A program made the translations under genes and the position numbers. Below are positions 32,398 to 58,383 of a stretch of DNA of 64,000 nucleotides, piece by piece. Positions within the stretch are counted from its first letter, which is position 1; each line of letters starts with the position of its first letter. The DNA comes from Coriobacteriia bacterium (GTDB lineage: Bacteria > Actinomycetota > Coriobacteriia > Anaerosomatales > SLCP01): positions 62,001-126,000 of the forward strand of contig JAUVXE010000001.1 in assembly GCA_030603745.1 (NCBI GenBank). Reading direction: 5' to 3'. The notes below the pieces were generated by a model. The model was not told where the DNA came from. It worked only from the letters and a program-made list of their open reading frames with translations, and ran no database searches.

Positions 32398-33228
32398 GTG
32401 ACCGATCGTCCCTCACGTCTCGCCGGCCTCGCCGGCATGCCGGTCCGGCTGCTCACGGCCGCGGCGTACGCGACCGTCCTGCTCGCCGCCGTGCTGTTCG
32501 GCGGTACGCTGGGGCTCGCGCTCCTCGTCGCCGTCCTCGGGGTCCTCGCGTGCAGGGAGCTCCTCACCATCGTGCGCGGTACCGCCCGCGCGTCGGCCGA
32601 CGCGGTCGCGCTCTTCGGGGTCGCTGCCATGCCGCTGGCGAGCGCTGCCTGGGGATCCGCCGGCCTGCTCGGTGTCGCCTCCGCTGCGACACTCGCGCTG
32701 CTGCTCGCGCACACCACGACCCCGTCTGCGTCTGCACGGGAGACGGCCGTCACGCTCCTCGGCGTCACCTACATCGGCGTGCTGCTCTCGCACCTCGTGC
32801 TCGTGCGGACCCTCGACACCGGGCTCGCCCTGGTGCTCGTGGCGATCGTGAGCGTGTGGGCCAGCGATGTCTTCGCCTATCTCGTCGGGTCGACCCTCGG
32901 TCGCCACAAGATGGCTCCGCGGATCTCGCCCAACAAGTCGTGGGAGGGGTTCATCGCTGGCACCGTCGGCACCGTGGCGGTCTGGACGATCGGCGCCCGG
33001 GTCATCGAACTCGGTATCACCACGCCGCTCGCCGCAGCGACGGGTATCGCGGTGGCACTGGCCGCCGTCGCGGGGGACCTGTTCGAGTCCCGCCTCAAGC
33101 GTGAGGCGGGCGTGAAGGACTCCGGGACCGCGCTCCCCGGCCACGGCGGGTTCCTCGACCGCATCGACAGCCTCATCCTCGTGAGCGCCGTCGTCTACTA
33201 CGTGATGCTGGCGGGTGGGGTCCGATGA
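32398..33228 (+). CDS. cdsA: Phosphatidate cytidylyltransferase CdsA
   Basis: CdsA makes CDP-diacylglycerol, the branch point to phosphatidylglycerol (via PgsA, also in this window) and other lipids. The 276-residue membrane protein has about seven hydrophobic segments and the CDS signature near the C-terminus (SRLKREAGVKDSGTALPGHG, then GFLDRIDSL). The NKSWEGFIAG motif is also present. It starts at GTG 32398, three bases after uppS. Its stop overlaps dxr. Confidence 0.96.
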   Translation: MTDRPSRLAGLAGMPVRLLTAAAYATVLLAAVLFGGTLGLALLVAVLGVLACRELLTIVRGTARASADAVALFGVAAMPLASAAWGSAGLLGVASAATLALLLAHTTTPSASARETAVTLLGVTYIGVLLSHLVLVRTLDTGLALVLVAIVSVWASDVFAYLVGSTLGRHKMAPRISPNKSWEGFIAGTVGTVAVWTIGARVIELGITTPLAAATGIAVALAAVAGDLFESRLKREAGVKDSGTALPGHGGFLDRIDSLILVSAVVYYVMLAGGVR

Positions 33229-34382
33229 GCGCCCGCCTGCGCGTCGCCCTCCTCGGATCGACCGGCTCGATCGGTCGACAGGCGCTCGAGGTCGCCGCTG
33301 CGCACCCTGATGCCATCGAGGTGGTGGCGCTCGCCGCGCACTCCTCGGCGGAAGCGCTCGCCGCACAGGCCCGCGCGTTCGGCGTCCCGGACGTCGCGCT
33401 CGCCGATGGGGGGGCGGCCCACCGGCTCGAACATGAGCTTCGCCGGGACGACGACCCGTTCCGCGCGGTGGGAGCCGGGCCCGACGCCATCGAGCGCATG
33501 GCGGCGCGCGACGACGTGGATGTGGTGCTGAACGCGCTTGTGGGCGCCGCAGGACTGCGCGCGACGATCGCCGCTCTCGACGCGGGGACGACGCTTGCGC
33601 TCGCGAACAAGGAGTCGCTCGTCGTAGGCGGCGACCTCGTCACGCGCCGCGCCCGTCCCGGCCAGCTGCTCCCGGTCGACTCGGAGCACTCGGCGATCCT
33701 CCAGTGCCTCGTGGGAGAGGACGACCGCGACGTCTCCCGCCTCTGGCTGACCGCAAGCGGCGGGCCGTTTCGAGGGTGGTCGCGCGACGAGCTCTCCTCC
33801 GTGACCGCCTCCGACGCGCTCGCGCATCCGACCTGGCGGATGGGCCCCAAGATCACCGTGGACTCGGCGACCCTCATGAACAAGGGGCTGGAGGTCATCG
33901 AGGCGCACCACCTCTTCGCCATCCCGTACGATCGGATCCGCGTCGTCGTGCACCCCCAGTCGTGCGTCCACTCGATGGTCGAGTACGTGGACGGCTCGGT
34001 GAAGGCGCACCTCGGCGTGACCGACATGCGCATACCGATCCAGTACGCCCTGAGCCATCCGCGACGCTGGACCGGACCCCTCGAGCCGCTCGACTTCACG
34101 ACCCTGGGCACGCTCGACTTCGAGGCCCCCGACCCCGACACCTTCCGCTGCCTGGGGCTGGCGCTCGAGGCCGGCCGCACCGGCGGCACGATGCCTGCGG
34201 TCATGAACGCCGCGAACGAGGTCGCCGTCGCCGCGTTCCTCGGCGGACGGTGCGCCTTCACCGATATCGACCGGATCGTCGAGCGCGTCATGGCGGGTCA
34301 TGCCCCCTCGGCCCTCGACTCGGTCGAGCAGGTCCTCGAGGTCGACCGGCACGCGCGGGACGCCGCGGCGGGCCTGCTCTGA
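33225..34382 (+). CDS. dxr: 1-deoxy-D-xylulose 5-phosphate reductoisomerase Dxr
   Basis: Dxr catalyses the first committed step of the MEP isoprenoid pathway, forming MEP with NADPH, and is the fosmidomycin target. The 385-residue enzyme has LLGSTGSIGRQAL for NADPH, ANKESLV and the metal ligands in VDSEHSA. The flexible loop is TASGGPFRGW, and ATLMNKGLEVIEAHHLF follows. The ATG at 33225 overlaps the cdsA stop. The 79-base gap to rseP holds no clear promoter. Confidence 0.97.
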   Translation: MSARLRVALLGSTGSIGRQALEVAAAHPDAIEVVALAAHSSAEALAAQARAFGVPDVALADGGAAHRLEHELRRDDDPFRAVGAGPDAIERMAARDDVDVVLNALVGAAGLRATIAALDAGTTLALANKESLVVGGDLVTRRARPGQLLPVDSEHSAILQCLVGEDDRDVSRLWLTASGGPFRGWSRDELSSVTASDALAHPTWRMGPKITVDSATLMNKGLEVIEAHHLFAIPYDRIRVVVHPQSCVHSMVEYVDGSVKAHLGVTDMRIPIQYALSHPRRWTGPLEPLDFTTLGTLDFEAPDPDTFRCLGLALEAGRTGGTMPAVMNAANEVAVAAFLGGRCAFTDIDRIVERVMAGHAPSALDSVEQVLEVDRHARDAAAGLL

Positions 34383-34461: not shown

Positions 34462-35727
34462 ATGCCTGAGGCGATGAGCACCATCCTGTGGGGCGTCCTG
34501 ACCTTCTCGATCCTCGTGGTCATACACGAAGGCGGCCACTTCCTCGCGGCCCGCGCGTTCGGGGTGAAGGTGCATGAGTTCATGATCGGCCTTCCCGGAC
34601 CCGCGCTGCGGTTCAAGAGCAGGCGCTCGGACACGGTCTTCGGCATCACCGCGATCCCGCTCGGCGGCTACGTGCGCATCGCGGGGATGGAGCCCGGCCC
34701 GGAGGACGAGCTGCTCGCCCCCGCGCTCAAGACCGCCGCGATCGCCGGCCGCATGGACGCGGGCACGCTCTCCTCGGCGTTGGGCGTGGACACCGCACGG
34801 GCCTCGGCACTCCTGGTGACGCTCGCGGACTGGGGGGTTCTCGAGCCCGCGACCGACGACGAGGTCTCCTACCTCGCGACCGTCTCGGCCACCGATCATA
34901 CGGACGCCGAGGCGCTCCTGGCCGACGCCCGGGCGGTCACGTACCGCGCGCTCTCCAAGCCCAAGCGGATCACCGTGCTCGTGATGGGGGTGCTCGCCAA
35001 CCTCGTGACCGCCCTGCTGGTGTTCACGGTCGTCCTCGGCGTGTGGGGCTACTATCAGCATTCGCTCACCCTCTACGACGTCCAGCCGGACTCCGCGGCC
35101 GAAGCCGCGGGCCTGCAGGCCGGGGACACCATCGTCGCGCTCGACGGAGAGCCGGTGGGCGACTGGATCGAGCTCACCACCGGCCTGTCAGAGCGGTCCC
35201 CCGGCGATGCCGTGCTGATCGACTTCCGCCGTGACGGTTCGGACCTGAGCGCCACCGCCGTCCTCGGCGCCTCGGAGAGCGGGACGCCGGTCCTCGGCGT
35301 GGTCTCCGACCTCGAGCATGTCGACCTGTCCATCGGGCGGGCCGCGATCGAGAGCGTGCGGATGACCGGTCTCGTCTTCCAGGCGATCGGGCGCTTCTTC
35401 TCGCCGGCCCACTTCCAGGAGTCGGTCGAGGGAGCGCGCAGCATCGTCGGCATCACGGTCGAGGTCGCCGAGGCCGCGGGCCGCGGCCCGCTCGACTACG
35501 CGTGGATCGTCGCGCTGCTCTCGCTCTCGCTCGGCGTGATGAACATCCTGCCGATACCGCCGCTCGACGGTGGCAAGGTCGCCATCGAGGTCATCGAGGG
35601 GGTCTCCGGCCGTCAGCTCGGCAGGCGTTTCGCCGTCGGCGTGAGCATCTCGGGGGCGGTCCTGCTCTTCTCGCTCATCGGCTACCTCATGTACGCCGAT
35701 GTGGTGCGCTACTTCATAGAACGCTAG
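34462..35727 (+). CDS. rseP: RseP-type site-2 zinc metalloprotease with an inserted winged-helix-like segment
   Basis: An intramembrane protease of the S2P family, which cuts regulatory membrane proteins such as anti-sigma factors and cleaves remnant signal peptides. The 421-residue protein has HEGGH (residues 22-26) in the first membrane helix, a PDZ domain at about 215-295 (YDVQPDSAAEAAGLQAGD), and the third zinc-ligand motif NILPIPPLDGGKV near the end. Unusually, residues about 82-160, between GGYVRIAGM and the second hydrophobic core, form an extra segment resembling a winged helix-turn-helix. ATG 34462 follows GGAGAGTGAGAG; a TTG one codon earlier is possible. Confidence 0.94.
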   Translation: MPEAMSTILWGVLTFSILVVIHEGGHFLAARAFGVKVHEFMIGLPGPALRFKSRRSDTVFGITAIPLGGYVRIAGMEPGPEDELLAPALKTAAIAGRMDAGTLSSALGVDTARASALLVTLADWGVLEPATDDEVSYLATVSATDHTDAEALLADARAVTYRALSKPKRITVLVMGVLANLVTALLVFTVVLGVWGYYQHSLTLYDVQPDSAAEAAGLQAGDTIVALDGEPVGDWIELTTGLSERSPGDAVLIDFRRDGSDLSATAVLGASESGTPVLGVVSDLEHVDLSIGRAAIESVRMTGLVFQAIGRFFSPAHFQESVEGARSIVGITVEVAEAAGRGPLDYAWIVALLSLSLGVMNILPIPPLDGGKVAIEVIEGVSGRQLGRRFAVGVSISGAVLLFSLIGYLMYADVVRYFIER

Positions 35728-35754: not shown

Positions 35755-36834
35755 ATGACGTACGAACGGCGGGATTCGCGGCCGGTGATGGTCGGCCGTG
35801 TCATGGTGGGCGGCGGCGCCCCGATCACGGTCCAGTCGATGACCACGACCGATCCGCGCGACGTCTCGGCCACCCTCGAGCAGATCGGACGCCTGACAGA
35901 GGCGGGCTGCGAGATCGTCCGTGTGGCGCTTCCGGGGCATGAGTCGCTCGACGGGTTCGAGCGCGTCTGCGCCCAGTCGCCGATCCCGGTCGTGGCCGAC
36001 GTCCACTTCGACCACACCCTCGCCATCGAGGCCGCCCGACGAGGCGCCGCGAAACTGCGGGTCAACCCCGGCAACATCGGTTCGCTCGACCGGGTCGACG
36101 CGGTGATCGACGCCGCCGGGGAGGCGGGGATCCCGATCCGGATCGGCGTCAACGCAGGCTCGCTCGCATCCGAACACCGGGACAAGGACTGGCCGCTCGC
36201 CGACAAGCTCGTCGCGAGCGCGATCGCCTTCTGCGAGCACTTCGAGGGCCGCGGGTTCACCGACATCGTCGTCGCCGCCAAGGCCTCCAACGTGGTCTCT
36301 ACGGTCGATGCCTACCGCGCGCTCTCCACCGCGGTGCCCTACCCGTTCCACATCGGGGTGACCGAGGCGGGCACCTCGCTCGCCGGCACGGTGAAGTCGA
36401 GCGTGGGTCTCGGCATCCTGCTCGCCGAGGGGATCGGCGACACGCTGCGCGTCTCGCTGACCTCGGACCCGGTCGACGAGGTCAGGGTAGGGTGGGCGAT
36501 CCTCGCCGCGCTCGACATCCGGCGGCGGGGCCCCGAGCTCGTGAGCTGCCCGACGTGCGGCCGGTGCGAGGTCGACCTGATCCCGCTCGCGCGCGAGATC
36601 GAGGAGCGTCTGCGCACCCGGACCACGCCGCTCAAGGTCGCGGTGATGGGGTGCGTGGTCAACGGCCCCGGAGAGGCGCGGGAGGCCGATATCGGCGTCG
36701 CGGCGGGCAAGGGGGTCGGCATGATCTTCGCCAAGGGGCGTCCTTTGCGCAAGGTCCCCGAGGAGGGGATCGTCGACGCCCTCATGGACGAGATCGACGC
36801 CATCGACCGCCACGGGGCTCCGGCCGACCGCTGA
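35755..36834 (+). CDS. ispG: 4-hydroxy-3-methylbut-2-en-1-yl diphosphate synthase IspG
   Basis: IspG is the [4Fe-4S] enzyme that converts MEcPP to HMBPP in the MEP pathway. The 359-residue protein has the TIM-barrel half (VMVGGGAPITVQSMTTTDPR, LRVNPGNIGS, IGVTEAGT). The cluster-binding half has Cys265, Cys268 and Cys300 with Glu307 (CPTCGR, GCVVNGPGEA). The ATG at 35755 is 27 bases after rseP. dxr, rseP, ispG and proS form a group found in many bacteria. ispH is not in the window. Confidence 0.97.
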   Translation: MTYERRDSRPVMVGRVMVGGGAPITVQSMTTTDPRDVSATLEQIGRLTEAGCEIVRVALPGHESLDGFERVCAQSPIPVVADVHFDHTLAIEAARRGAAKLRVNPGNIGSLDRVDAVIDAAGEAGIPIRIGVNAGSLASEHRDKDWPLADKLVASAIAFCEHFEGRGFTDIVVAAKASNVVSTVDAYRALSTAVPYPFHIGVTEAGTSLAGTVKSSVGLGILLAEGIGDTLRVSLTSDPVDEVRVGWAILAALDIRRRGPELVSCPTCGRCEVDLIPLAREIEERLRTRTTPLKVAVMGCVVNGPGEAREADIGVAAGKGVGMIFAKGRPLRKVPEEGIVDALMDEIDAIDRHGAPADR

Positions 36835-56112: not shown

Positions 56113-58383
56113 ATGGCCTCACGGGGAACAACCAAGAAGCGCACCACCGGCTCCCGTGCGACGGGCGCTTCCCCGAAGCGCGCCAACAACCGTCGCCAGC
56201 CGGCACAGCCGGTCCTCGAGCCGGACGCCCGCTACGACATCTACGGGATCGTCCTGGTCGCCGCTGCCATCGCGCTCGCGATCGCGCTGCTCTCCTCGGG
56301 GGCCGGTCTTCTCGGCGGGGCGGTGGCCGGCATCTTCCGACTGCTCTTCGGACTCGGCGCGTTCGTCGTCCCCGTGCTCATGCTGCTGTGGGGCGTGACC
56401 TTCTTCGTGCGCACCATCGCGATCAGCGAGCTCCGTGTCGGCGCGGGCCTCGGCATCGTCCTCCTGGCGCTCATCGGGATGCTCGGTCTCGGCTCGTCCG
56501 CCGAGGAGCAGTGGCGCACCATCGAGCTCGAGACCCACGGCGGCTACCTCGGAGGGGGACTCGCCTGGGCGCTGCGCTCCCTGGTGGGCGAGCCGATCTC
56601 TTACGTGGTACTCGCCGCCGTCATGCTGATCGGCCTGGTGATCACGGGCCTGTCGGTCTCAGGTCTCGTCGAGAGGGTGTCGGAGCGGTTCGCGACCTCG
56701 GGTCGCGACGAGGACCGCCCGGAGCCGTCGCGCCGGACCGAACGCGCACCGCGCACCGTCCCGCTCGAGGAGCTCGACTCCTCGGCGCCGGAGATCGCGC
56801 GCTCCCGCCCGGTCAGCGGACGCATCCGGTCGAAGAATCCCGCCGAGGACCCCGAGGTACGGCGTCAGACCGTGCCCACGCCGCGCACGAGCGCTCCCAA
56901 GGCGATGGAGGGTTTCGAGCTGCCCGCGACGACCCTTCTCGCACGCAGCCCCGAGAGCGCCTCGCGCCACCGGGCCACCGAGAAGGAGCTCACCACCACC
57001 GCCCGGGTCATCGAGGAGACGCTCGCGACCTTCGACATCCCCTCGAAGGTCGTCGGCTGGATCCCCGGACCCACGGTCACGATGTATGAGATCGAGCTGT
57101 CGCGCGGGGTCAAGGTCAACCGGGTGACCTCGCTCGCCGACGATCTCGCCCTCGCGCTGGCCGCCGCCACGGTGCGCATCCTCGCGCCGATACCCGGCAA
57201 GTCCCTCGTGGGCATCGAGGTCCCCAACGAGCGCCGCTCCACCGTCACCCTTGGCGACGTCCTCGCCGCGCCCGCCGCGGCCGCCGGCGGCCCACTCGTC
57301 CTCGGCATCGGGAAGGACGTCTCGGGGGACAGCGTCGTCGCCGACCTCGCGTCCATGCCCCACCTCCTCATCGCCGGCTCCACCGGCACCGGCAAGTCCG
57401 TGTGCATCAACGCGCTGCTCACCTCGGTGCTCATGCGGGCGACCCCGGCCGAGGTCCGCCTCATCCTCATCGACCCCAAACGCATCGAACTCTCGCTCTA
57501 CAACGGCGTGCCGCACCTCTATGTCCCGGTGGTCACCGAACCCAAGGAGGCCGCGAGCGCGCTCGCCTGGGCGGTGAGCGAGATGGAGGCACGCCTCAAG
57601 CGCCTGCAGAAGGCCGGGGCGCGCAACATCGGGATGTACAACGCCATGGTCCAGGACGGTCGGGGGCCCGAGGGTGCCGAGGAGATGCCCTATCTCATGA
57701 TCGTCATCGACGAGCTCGCCGACCTCATGATGGTGGCGGCCAAGGAGGTCGAGGACTCGATCTGCCGCCTCGCCCAGCTCGCCCGCGCGGCCGGCATCCA
57801 CCTCGTGGTGGCGACGCAGCGTCCCTCGACCGACATCATCACCGGCCTCATCAAGACCAACATCACGAACCGCATCGCGTTCGCGGTATCCTCGGGGATC
57901 GACTCCCGCGTCATCCTCGACCAGCCCGGCGCGGACAAGCTCGTCGGTCTCGGGGACATGCTCTTCTCCACGCCCGCCTGGCCCAAGCCCAAGCGGATCC
58001 AGGGGGCCTTCGTCTCCGAGGACGAGATCGGCGCCATCGTCGCGCACCTCAAGGAGCAGGCCGAGCCCGACTACCACGAGGAGATCCTCCACCTCAAGGT
58101 CGCCTCGGCCGGTGGCGGGGTCGACGCGGGTGAGGACGACGACCCGCTGCTGTGGGAGGCCGCCGACGTGGTGGTGACCTCAGGGCTCGGCTCGACGTCG
58201 ATGCTCCAGCGCCGCCTCAAGGTCGGCTACGCGCGGGCAGGGCGTATCATGGACATGCTCGAGTCAAAGGGCGTCGTCGGACCGCCGGACGGCTCGAAGC
58301 CCCGCGAGGTGCTCGTCGACGTCGAGGACCTCGAGGCGATCAAGGGGTTCGAGCGCAGCGACCGCGACAGGGAGGGGGAGTAG
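56113..58383 (+). CDS. ftsK: DNA translocase FtsK/SpoIIIE
   Basis: FtsK pumps chromosomal DNA through the closing septum and activates Xer recombination. The 756-residue protein has a basic N-terminus, four membrane helices (about residues 40-185) and a short linker. The alpha-beta motor has Walker A GSTGTGKS (422-429) and Walker B LMIVIDELADLMM. RPSTDIITGLIKTNITNRIA follows, and a C-terminal gamma winged helix covers about 680-745 (SMLQRRLKVGYARAGRIMDM). It follows uppP by 18 bases. The xerC gene at 25934 provides a likely partner recombinase. Confidence 0.96.
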   Translation: MASRGTTKKRTTGSRATGASPKRANNRRQPAQPVLEPDARYDIYGIVLVAAAIALAIALLSSGAGLLGGAVAGIFRLLFGLGAFVVPVLMLLWGVTFFVRTIAISELRVGAGLGIVLLALIGMLGLGSSAEEQWRTIELETHGGYLGGGLAWALRSLVGEPISYVVLAAVMLIGLVITGLSVSGLVERVSERFATSGRDEDRPEPSRRTERAPRTVPLEELDSSAPEIARSRPVSGRIRSKNPAEDPEVRRQTVPTPRTSAPKAMEGFELPATTLLARSPESASRHRATEKELTTTARVIEETLATFDIPSKVVGWIPGPTVTMYEIELSRGVKVNRVTSLADDLALALAAATVRILAPIPGKSLVGIEVPNERRSTVTLGDVLAAPAAAAGGPLVLGIGKDVSGDSVVADLASMPHLLIAGSTGTGKSVCINALLTSVLMRATPAEVRLILIDPKRIELSLYNGVPHLYVPVVTEPKEAASALAWAVSEMEARLKRLQKAGARNIGMYNAMVQDGRGPEGAEEMPYLMIVIDELADLMMVAAKEVEDSICRLAQLARAAGIHLVVATQRPSTDIITGLIKTNITNRIAFAVSSGIDSRVILDQPGADKLVGLGDMLFSTPAWPKPKRIQGAFVSEDEIGAIVAHLKEQAEPDYHEEILHLKVASAGGGVDAGEDDDPLLWEAADVVVTSGLGSTSMLQRRLKVGYARAGRIMDMLESKGVVGPPDGSKPREVLVDVEDLEAIKGFERSDRDREGE

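Follow-up and report, generated by a model that had tools for sequence, protein, structure and literature searches.

The choice of substrate by site-2 proteases is an open question. Known control elements of the Group I enzymes are a periplasmic PDZ and amphiphilic helix, a membrane-reentrant loop and a short first cytoplasmic loop. In E. coli RseP, Tyr69-Val-Lys, a strand of the membrane-reentrant loop, crosslinks to the substrate, which it binds through strand addition (PMC4597795), and the first cytoplasmic loop, which is adjacent to that strand, also touches the substrate, whilst the PDZ tandem of the same enzyme acts as a size-exclusion filter (PMC7728848). RasP, a Group I protease of B. 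subtilis, depends for its activity on the EcsAB complex (PMC7478892), and a model of RasP with EcsA is available in the PDB (9a6w). In SpoIVFB, a Group III enzyme, a cytosolic CBS domain contacts the cytosolic part of the substrate Pro-sigmaK (PMC9042235). The portion of a 2023 review consulted here divides the site-2 proteases into groups with PDZ domains (Group I), with CBS domains (Group III) and with no additional domain (Groups II and IV), and that portion names no winged helix among their domains (PMC10202637).

Here we describe a Group I RseP from Coriobacteriia with a predicted winged helix in the cytoplasmic loop between its first two transmembrane helices. Although RseP itself is already known, no description of a winged helix in a site-2 protease, or in a Coriobacteria RseP, was found in the literature searched, with most subscription papers lying outside its scope; an earlier reading of the DNA from sequence alone had likewise known of none. 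Like SpoIVFB, the protein is an intramembrane metalloprotease with a soluble accessory domain that should lie in the cytosol. The two arrangements differ, however, as SpoIVFB has a C-terminal CBS fold and no PDZ, whereas the coriobacterial winged helix belongs to a Group I enzyme and is placed in the loop between TM1 and TM2. It differs similarly from the RasP system, in which the regulator EcsA is a separate protein, in that the extra domain is built into RseP itself.

The protease and its predicted winged-helix insert

The window, a stretch of 64,000 nucleotides from a Coriobacteriia bacterium, encodes a 421-residue protein that matches the RIP metalloprotease RseP model TIGR00054 (E 3e-56) and Peptidase_M50 (PF02163, E 7.9e-44), both above cut-off, and is the sole full RseP-type match in its genome (Table 1). 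It shares with E. coli RseP and the other Group I enzymes (TIGR00054, MEROPS M50B), including M. tuberculosis Rip1, an HExxH motif in TM1, a reentrant beta-sheet with GGYV(K/R), TM2, a PDZ between TM2 and TM3, the LDG motif and the dxr/cdsA/uppS cluster. The motif residues H22, E23, G25 and H26 do not vary in alignment A1. The gene order, pyrH-frr-uppS-cdsA-dxr-rseP-ispG-proS-rimP-nusA, is the usual RseP neighbourhood, and a motif scan placed both dxr and ispG next to rseP in 89 of 119 relatives' loci, a set that is redundant and in which misses may reflect the limits of the motifs. A CBS domain gave no Pfam match in the protein at E ≤ 10, and the Group III pattern of a C-terminal CBS without a PDZ is absent. 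Judged by these sequence features, the protein is an orthologous RseP, a Group I site-2 protease with predicted cleavage activity.

Table 1. Features of the rseP locus, with coordinates in the window
Feature	Residues	Position	Strand	Basis
rseP, site-2 protease, 421 aa		34462..35727	+	TIGR00054, PF02163
HEGGH zinc motif in TM1	22-26	34525..34539	+	read from sequence
GGYVR, counterpart of the E. coli Tyr69-Val-Lys strand, membrane-reentrant beta-loop	68-72	34663..34677	+	
Inserted segment	77-156	34690..34929	+	loop lengths; homologous in all Coriobacteriia read
Winged-helix H1 (predicted)	85-95	34714..34746	+	AlphaFold2, full protein and isolated segment
Winged-helix H2 (predicted)	100-107	34759..34782	+	AlphaFold2, full protein and isolated segment
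Winged-helix H3, 'recognition' helix (predicted)	111-123	34792..34830	+	AlphaFold2, full protein and isolated segment
Asp123-Trp124 pair at end of H3	123-124	34828..34833	+	column counts
Wing (predicted): strands S2 and S3	127-129, 137-139	34840..34878	+	AlphaFold2, full protein and isolated segment
C-terminal helix leading back to TM2 (predicted)	149-157	34906..34932	+	AlphaFold2
TM2	166-195	34957..35046	+	helix 166-195 in AlphaFold2 model
Single PDZ domain	202-265	35065..35256	+	PF13180, E 6.3e-10
LDGG motif	368-371	35563..35574	+	read from sequence; invariant in A1
dxr, upstream neighbour		33225..34382	+	PF02670/PF08436/PF13288
ispG (gcpE), downstream neighbour		35755..36834	+	PF04551, E 2.4e-137

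Only a short link joins GGYV to TM2 in the RseP of E. coli, in that of A. aeolicus and in most of the actinobacterial proteins, whereas the coriobacterial proteins have some 70 extra residues at this site, which contain the winged helix. Counted from GGY up to where the sequence first turns strongly hydrophobic, the loop measures 101 residues in the window protein and 98-145 in those Coriobacteriia RseP proteins that could be read, against 27-63 in other Actinomycetota (mostly 31-38, ~32 being typical) with the exception of two lineages. The insert begins a few residues past Y70-V71-R72 and precedes TM2; the GGY before it is invariant across 65 homologous inserts. The sequence-only reading had described about 80 extra residues, at 34705-34941 (residues 82-160); the extra segment is real and the net gain over other actinobacterial RseP proteins, ~70 residues, is slightly smaller. 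A frame or assembly artefact was ruled out by the presence of homologous open frames across many independent genomes.

The same topology, H1-S1-H2-H3-S2-wing-S3, emerges from AlphaFold2 models of the full-length protein (15-sequence alignment; pLDDT 86-95 by block across the insert) and of the segment alone (20 sequences; pLDDT ~90), with S1 a short strand at ~97-98 between H1 and H2. A strand at 69-73 covers the GGYVR region in the AlphaFold2 model. The pTM of the full-length model is 0.67, and the way in which it sets the domain against the protease is to be taken as provisional. In Foldseek searches of the PDB with the isolated insert, the top 50 matches were almost all winged helices, headed by the MarR family, with probabilities of 0.75-1.00 and no E-value under 0.001, as is common for domains this small; FtsK gamma (2ve8) superposed on the model with a target-normalised TM-score of 0.81 and an rmsd of 2.3. 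A fold search with the whole of RseP was dominated by RseP and PDZ matches and gave nothing informative on the insert.

Sequence profiles point to the same fold, with more matches than chance would give. With Pfam at E up to 1, MarR_2 matched 21 of the 65 homologous inserts (best E 3.6e-7), TrmB 19, HTH_IclR 12 and FtsK_gamma 10; a single member, L048, exceeds the MarR_2 (PF12802) cut-off, at 30.7 bits against 27. A profile of the insert searched against PDB sequences ranked FtsK gamma first (2j5o, E 0.0019). The window's own insert alone matches winged-helix families weakly (E 0.05-0.1, below cut-off), so that the assignment is carried by the homologous inserts together with the predicted structure. 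On these grounds the insert is predicted with high confidence to be a winged helix-turn-helix, the fold of FtsK gamma (PF09397) and MarR (PF12802). The winged-helix-like character proposed from the sequence thus holds at the level of structure prediction, and its placement of H2, H3 and the wing was correct, although it missed H1.

Distribution, origin and variants

The window RseP was matched, mostly at full length, in 68 of the 69 genomes of its order, a few incomplete genomes yielding only fragments or PDZ-like matches, and an RseP profile matched 193 of 199 genomes of the class at E ≤ 1e-30. Within a 346-genome sample of the phylum, a profile of the insert region matched all 31 Coriobacteriia genomes at E ≤ 4e-25 whilst its best matches outside the class reached only ~1e-4, many of them frames of 700-870 aa, the size of FtsK; the profile takes in a few flanking RseP residues, and the gap between in-class and out-of-class matches is about twenty orders of magnitude. 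Wherever the loop of a Coriobacteriia RseP was readable, the winged helix was present, with no readable loss in the class. The earlier question of whether the segment is an ordinary actinobacterial feature is answered in part each way: it is ordinary within Coriobacteriia, but the other lineages of the phylum sample lack it and the literature searched gave no description of it. The search for distant relatives of the insert covered Actinomycetota, and the broad genome scan beyond that phylum is of a kind that finds close relatives only.

In a tree of the RseP core, built by a quick search with loop and PDZ removed, all 38 carriers of the winged helix fall on one side of one branch (SH-aLRT 99.6), and one change suffices for the insert and one for the loss of the PDZ described below. 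By this sequence-based reconstruction, the winged helix is a single gain in the ancestor of Coriobacteriia that was subsequently retained. Divergent members, with 24-73% identity, keep the insert pattern intact. The closest pair (L001/L002) has a dN/dS of 0.089 for the insert and 0.064 for the remainder of RseP; where dS was usable in other pairs, the insert mostly gave values of 0.08-0.45. Since these values are well below 1, though somewhat higher than in the catalytic core, the insert is constrained, and it is under purifying selection. Identity to the window protein within the family is correspondingly 0.61-0.71 for the insert and 0.68-0.76 for the remainder of RseP.

The closest sequence relative of the insert that was found is FtsK gamma, encoded by the last part of the FtsK gene, at 58132-58317 of the same window. 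Comparison of the insert with FtsK gamma of the same order by hhalign gave 27-29% identity to the window's own FtsK gamma, E-values of 1e-4 to 3e-4, which as single-comparison values are not decisive, and probabilities of 42-57%. A duplication of FtsK gamma, whose gene lies in the same window, is a possible source of the insert on this sequence evidence. A search of the genome for paralogues of the insert returned only weak matches (E 0.06-0.4), one of them within FtsK.

One coriobacterial lineage, f19, departs from this architecture. Its RseP proteins (L088, L097, L108, L138, L161 and L170) are ~350-370 aa long and have HEGGH, LDGG and the insert, and no Pfam match to a PDZ was obtained in them; each of ten f19 genomes has one such PDZ-less winged-helix RseP together with shorter M50 proteins of other types. 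In view of the size-exclusion role of the PDZ tandem in E. coli, this lineage seems to have given up the PDZ size filter and kept the winged helix. In f18 and f22 (L081, L082, L083 and L117-L128), ~35 further residues lie between the winged helix and TM2, with a recurring motif of roughly Y-D-x-x-x-x-F ... G-E-P/W.

Long loops outside Coriobacteriia were met in just two actinobacterial lineages of the sample. In f31 (L162, L163, L164, L167, L168 and L169) the loops are 115-141 residues long, with ~85-110 extra residues that are mostly helical-looking, differ in sequence from the coriobacterial insert and have no Pfam match; in f62 (L087/L166) a loop of 97 residues occupies the same site with an unrelated sequence. 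Neither was accepted as the same domain, in view of the absence of winged-helix Pfam matches and their separate positions in the tree. The GGY-TM2 loop of RseP looks like a recurrent site of domain insertion.

The surface of the domain and its proposed role

Because the PDZ between TM2 and TM3 lies outside, the TM1-TM2 loop should lie inside, and by RseP topology the insert would therefore be on the cytoplasmic side of the membrane, in agreement with the sequence-only reading, which had argued on the same basis. That reading went on to suggest that the protease might be tethered to DNA or to a cytosolic partner that gates proteolysis. A winged helix in this position could in principle hold the enzyme on DNA in the manner of FtsK gamma or of a membrane-bound ToxR-type regulator, and its nearest folds and profiles, MarR, TrmB and FtsK gamma, are indeed DNA-binding winged helices, as is the subject of the hhalign match (E 1e-4 to 3e-4) to FtsK gamma of the same order. 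The surface of the domain speaks against such a role. Residues 82-140 are acidic in every homologue (net charge -10 to -1, median -6), and the H2-H3 stretch, which is basic (+4) in FtsK gamma, a domain nearly invariant in the order, has a median charge of -3 in the insert (range -10 to +1). Position 112 of H3 is Asp or Glu in 46 of the 65 inserts, and the exposed positions of this helix are variable and often acidic. The insert diverges fast, whereas FtsK gamma domains of the order, which do read DNA, retain 74-89% identity to that of the window. A basic, conserved recognition surface of the MarR or FtsK gamma type was looked for in the insert homologues and was not found; unlike MarR, moreover, the insert is no free dimeric repressor and sits within a protease. 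With every member acidic and no basic recognition helix conserved among them, tethering to DNA is disfavoured and appears very improbable. The DNA half of the earlier proposal is thus not supported, and a protein partner seems the better reading.

Conserved columns of the insert belong mainly to the hydrophobic core (L89, L103, A114 and L121). The near-invariant Asp123-Trp124 pair is the exception, with D123 present in 53 and W124 in 59 of the 65 inserts; at this place FtsK gamma carries a residue that is small or variable, and Lys. Apart from this pair, no exposed patch is obviously conserved. The pair may make contact with a partner, or else it may pack on the helix that comes next. R157, T160 and Y161, near the end of the insert, are also strongly conserved.

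The reading that we favour, with a probability of roughly 55%, is that the insert serves on the cytoplasmic side as a module for protein docking and gating where substrates enter RseP, in analogy to the CBS domain of SpoIVFB; the dependence of RasP on EcsAB is a further parallel. The winged helix would sit where the active site opens to the cytoplasm, after the strand that clamps the substrate beside the zinc site and before TM2. The domain, which probably docks protein rather than DNA, would bind the cytosolic part of a substrate, for example an anti-sigma factor with its sigma factor, or else a cytosolic regulator, and such binding would control substrate access, that is, which transmembrane proteins reach the catalytic site. 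The predicted fold and the position of the domain, its class-wide retention after a single gain, purifying selection, its acidity, the loss of the PDZ in f19 and the precedent of SpoIVFB count for this proposal. Against it count the faster evolution of the insert relative to the rest of RseP, the scarcity of conserved exposed residues beyond D123-W124 and the provisional orientation of the domain in the model.

Two other explanations dispense with an outside partner. The winged helix might be mainly an oligomerisation or structural module that pairs with itself between RseP copies or packs on the beta-sheet and TM2, holding the protease in shape. Dimers are frequent among winged helices, of which MarR has the closest fold, Trp124 and the R157/T160/Y161 linker could be packing residues, and the remainder of the insert diverges quickly. 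Group I proteases elsewhere, those of other Actinomycetota among them, nevertheless manage without it, and we consider this explanation rather unlikely, though the strongest of the alternatives. Less likely again, yet ahead of DNA tethering, is that the insert is merely tolerated: a permissive loop would have captured this passenger a single time, and inertia, not any particular function, would have kept it there. The unrelated long insertions in the same loop of f31 and f62 show that the site tolerates insertions, but a passenger is difficult to reconcile with the lack of readable loss in the class, the intact pattern in divergent members, a dN/dS well below 1 and the retention of the winged helix where the PDZ was lost.

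Beyond the docking and gating module itself, a more tentative extension is that in Coriobacteriia intramembrane proteolysis has passed from periplasmic to cytoplasmic control. The winged helix would then read either the substrate's cytosolic domain or a signal from the cytosol, and would have replaced the PDZ filter altogether in f19; we regard this as possible rather than likely. A folded cytosolic domain beside the substrate-binding strand, found class-wide and kept without a PDZ in f19, offers a natural experiment on the rewiring of gating. Since Coriobacteriia include common gut bacteria, the winged-helix variant of RseP is probably widespread in people.
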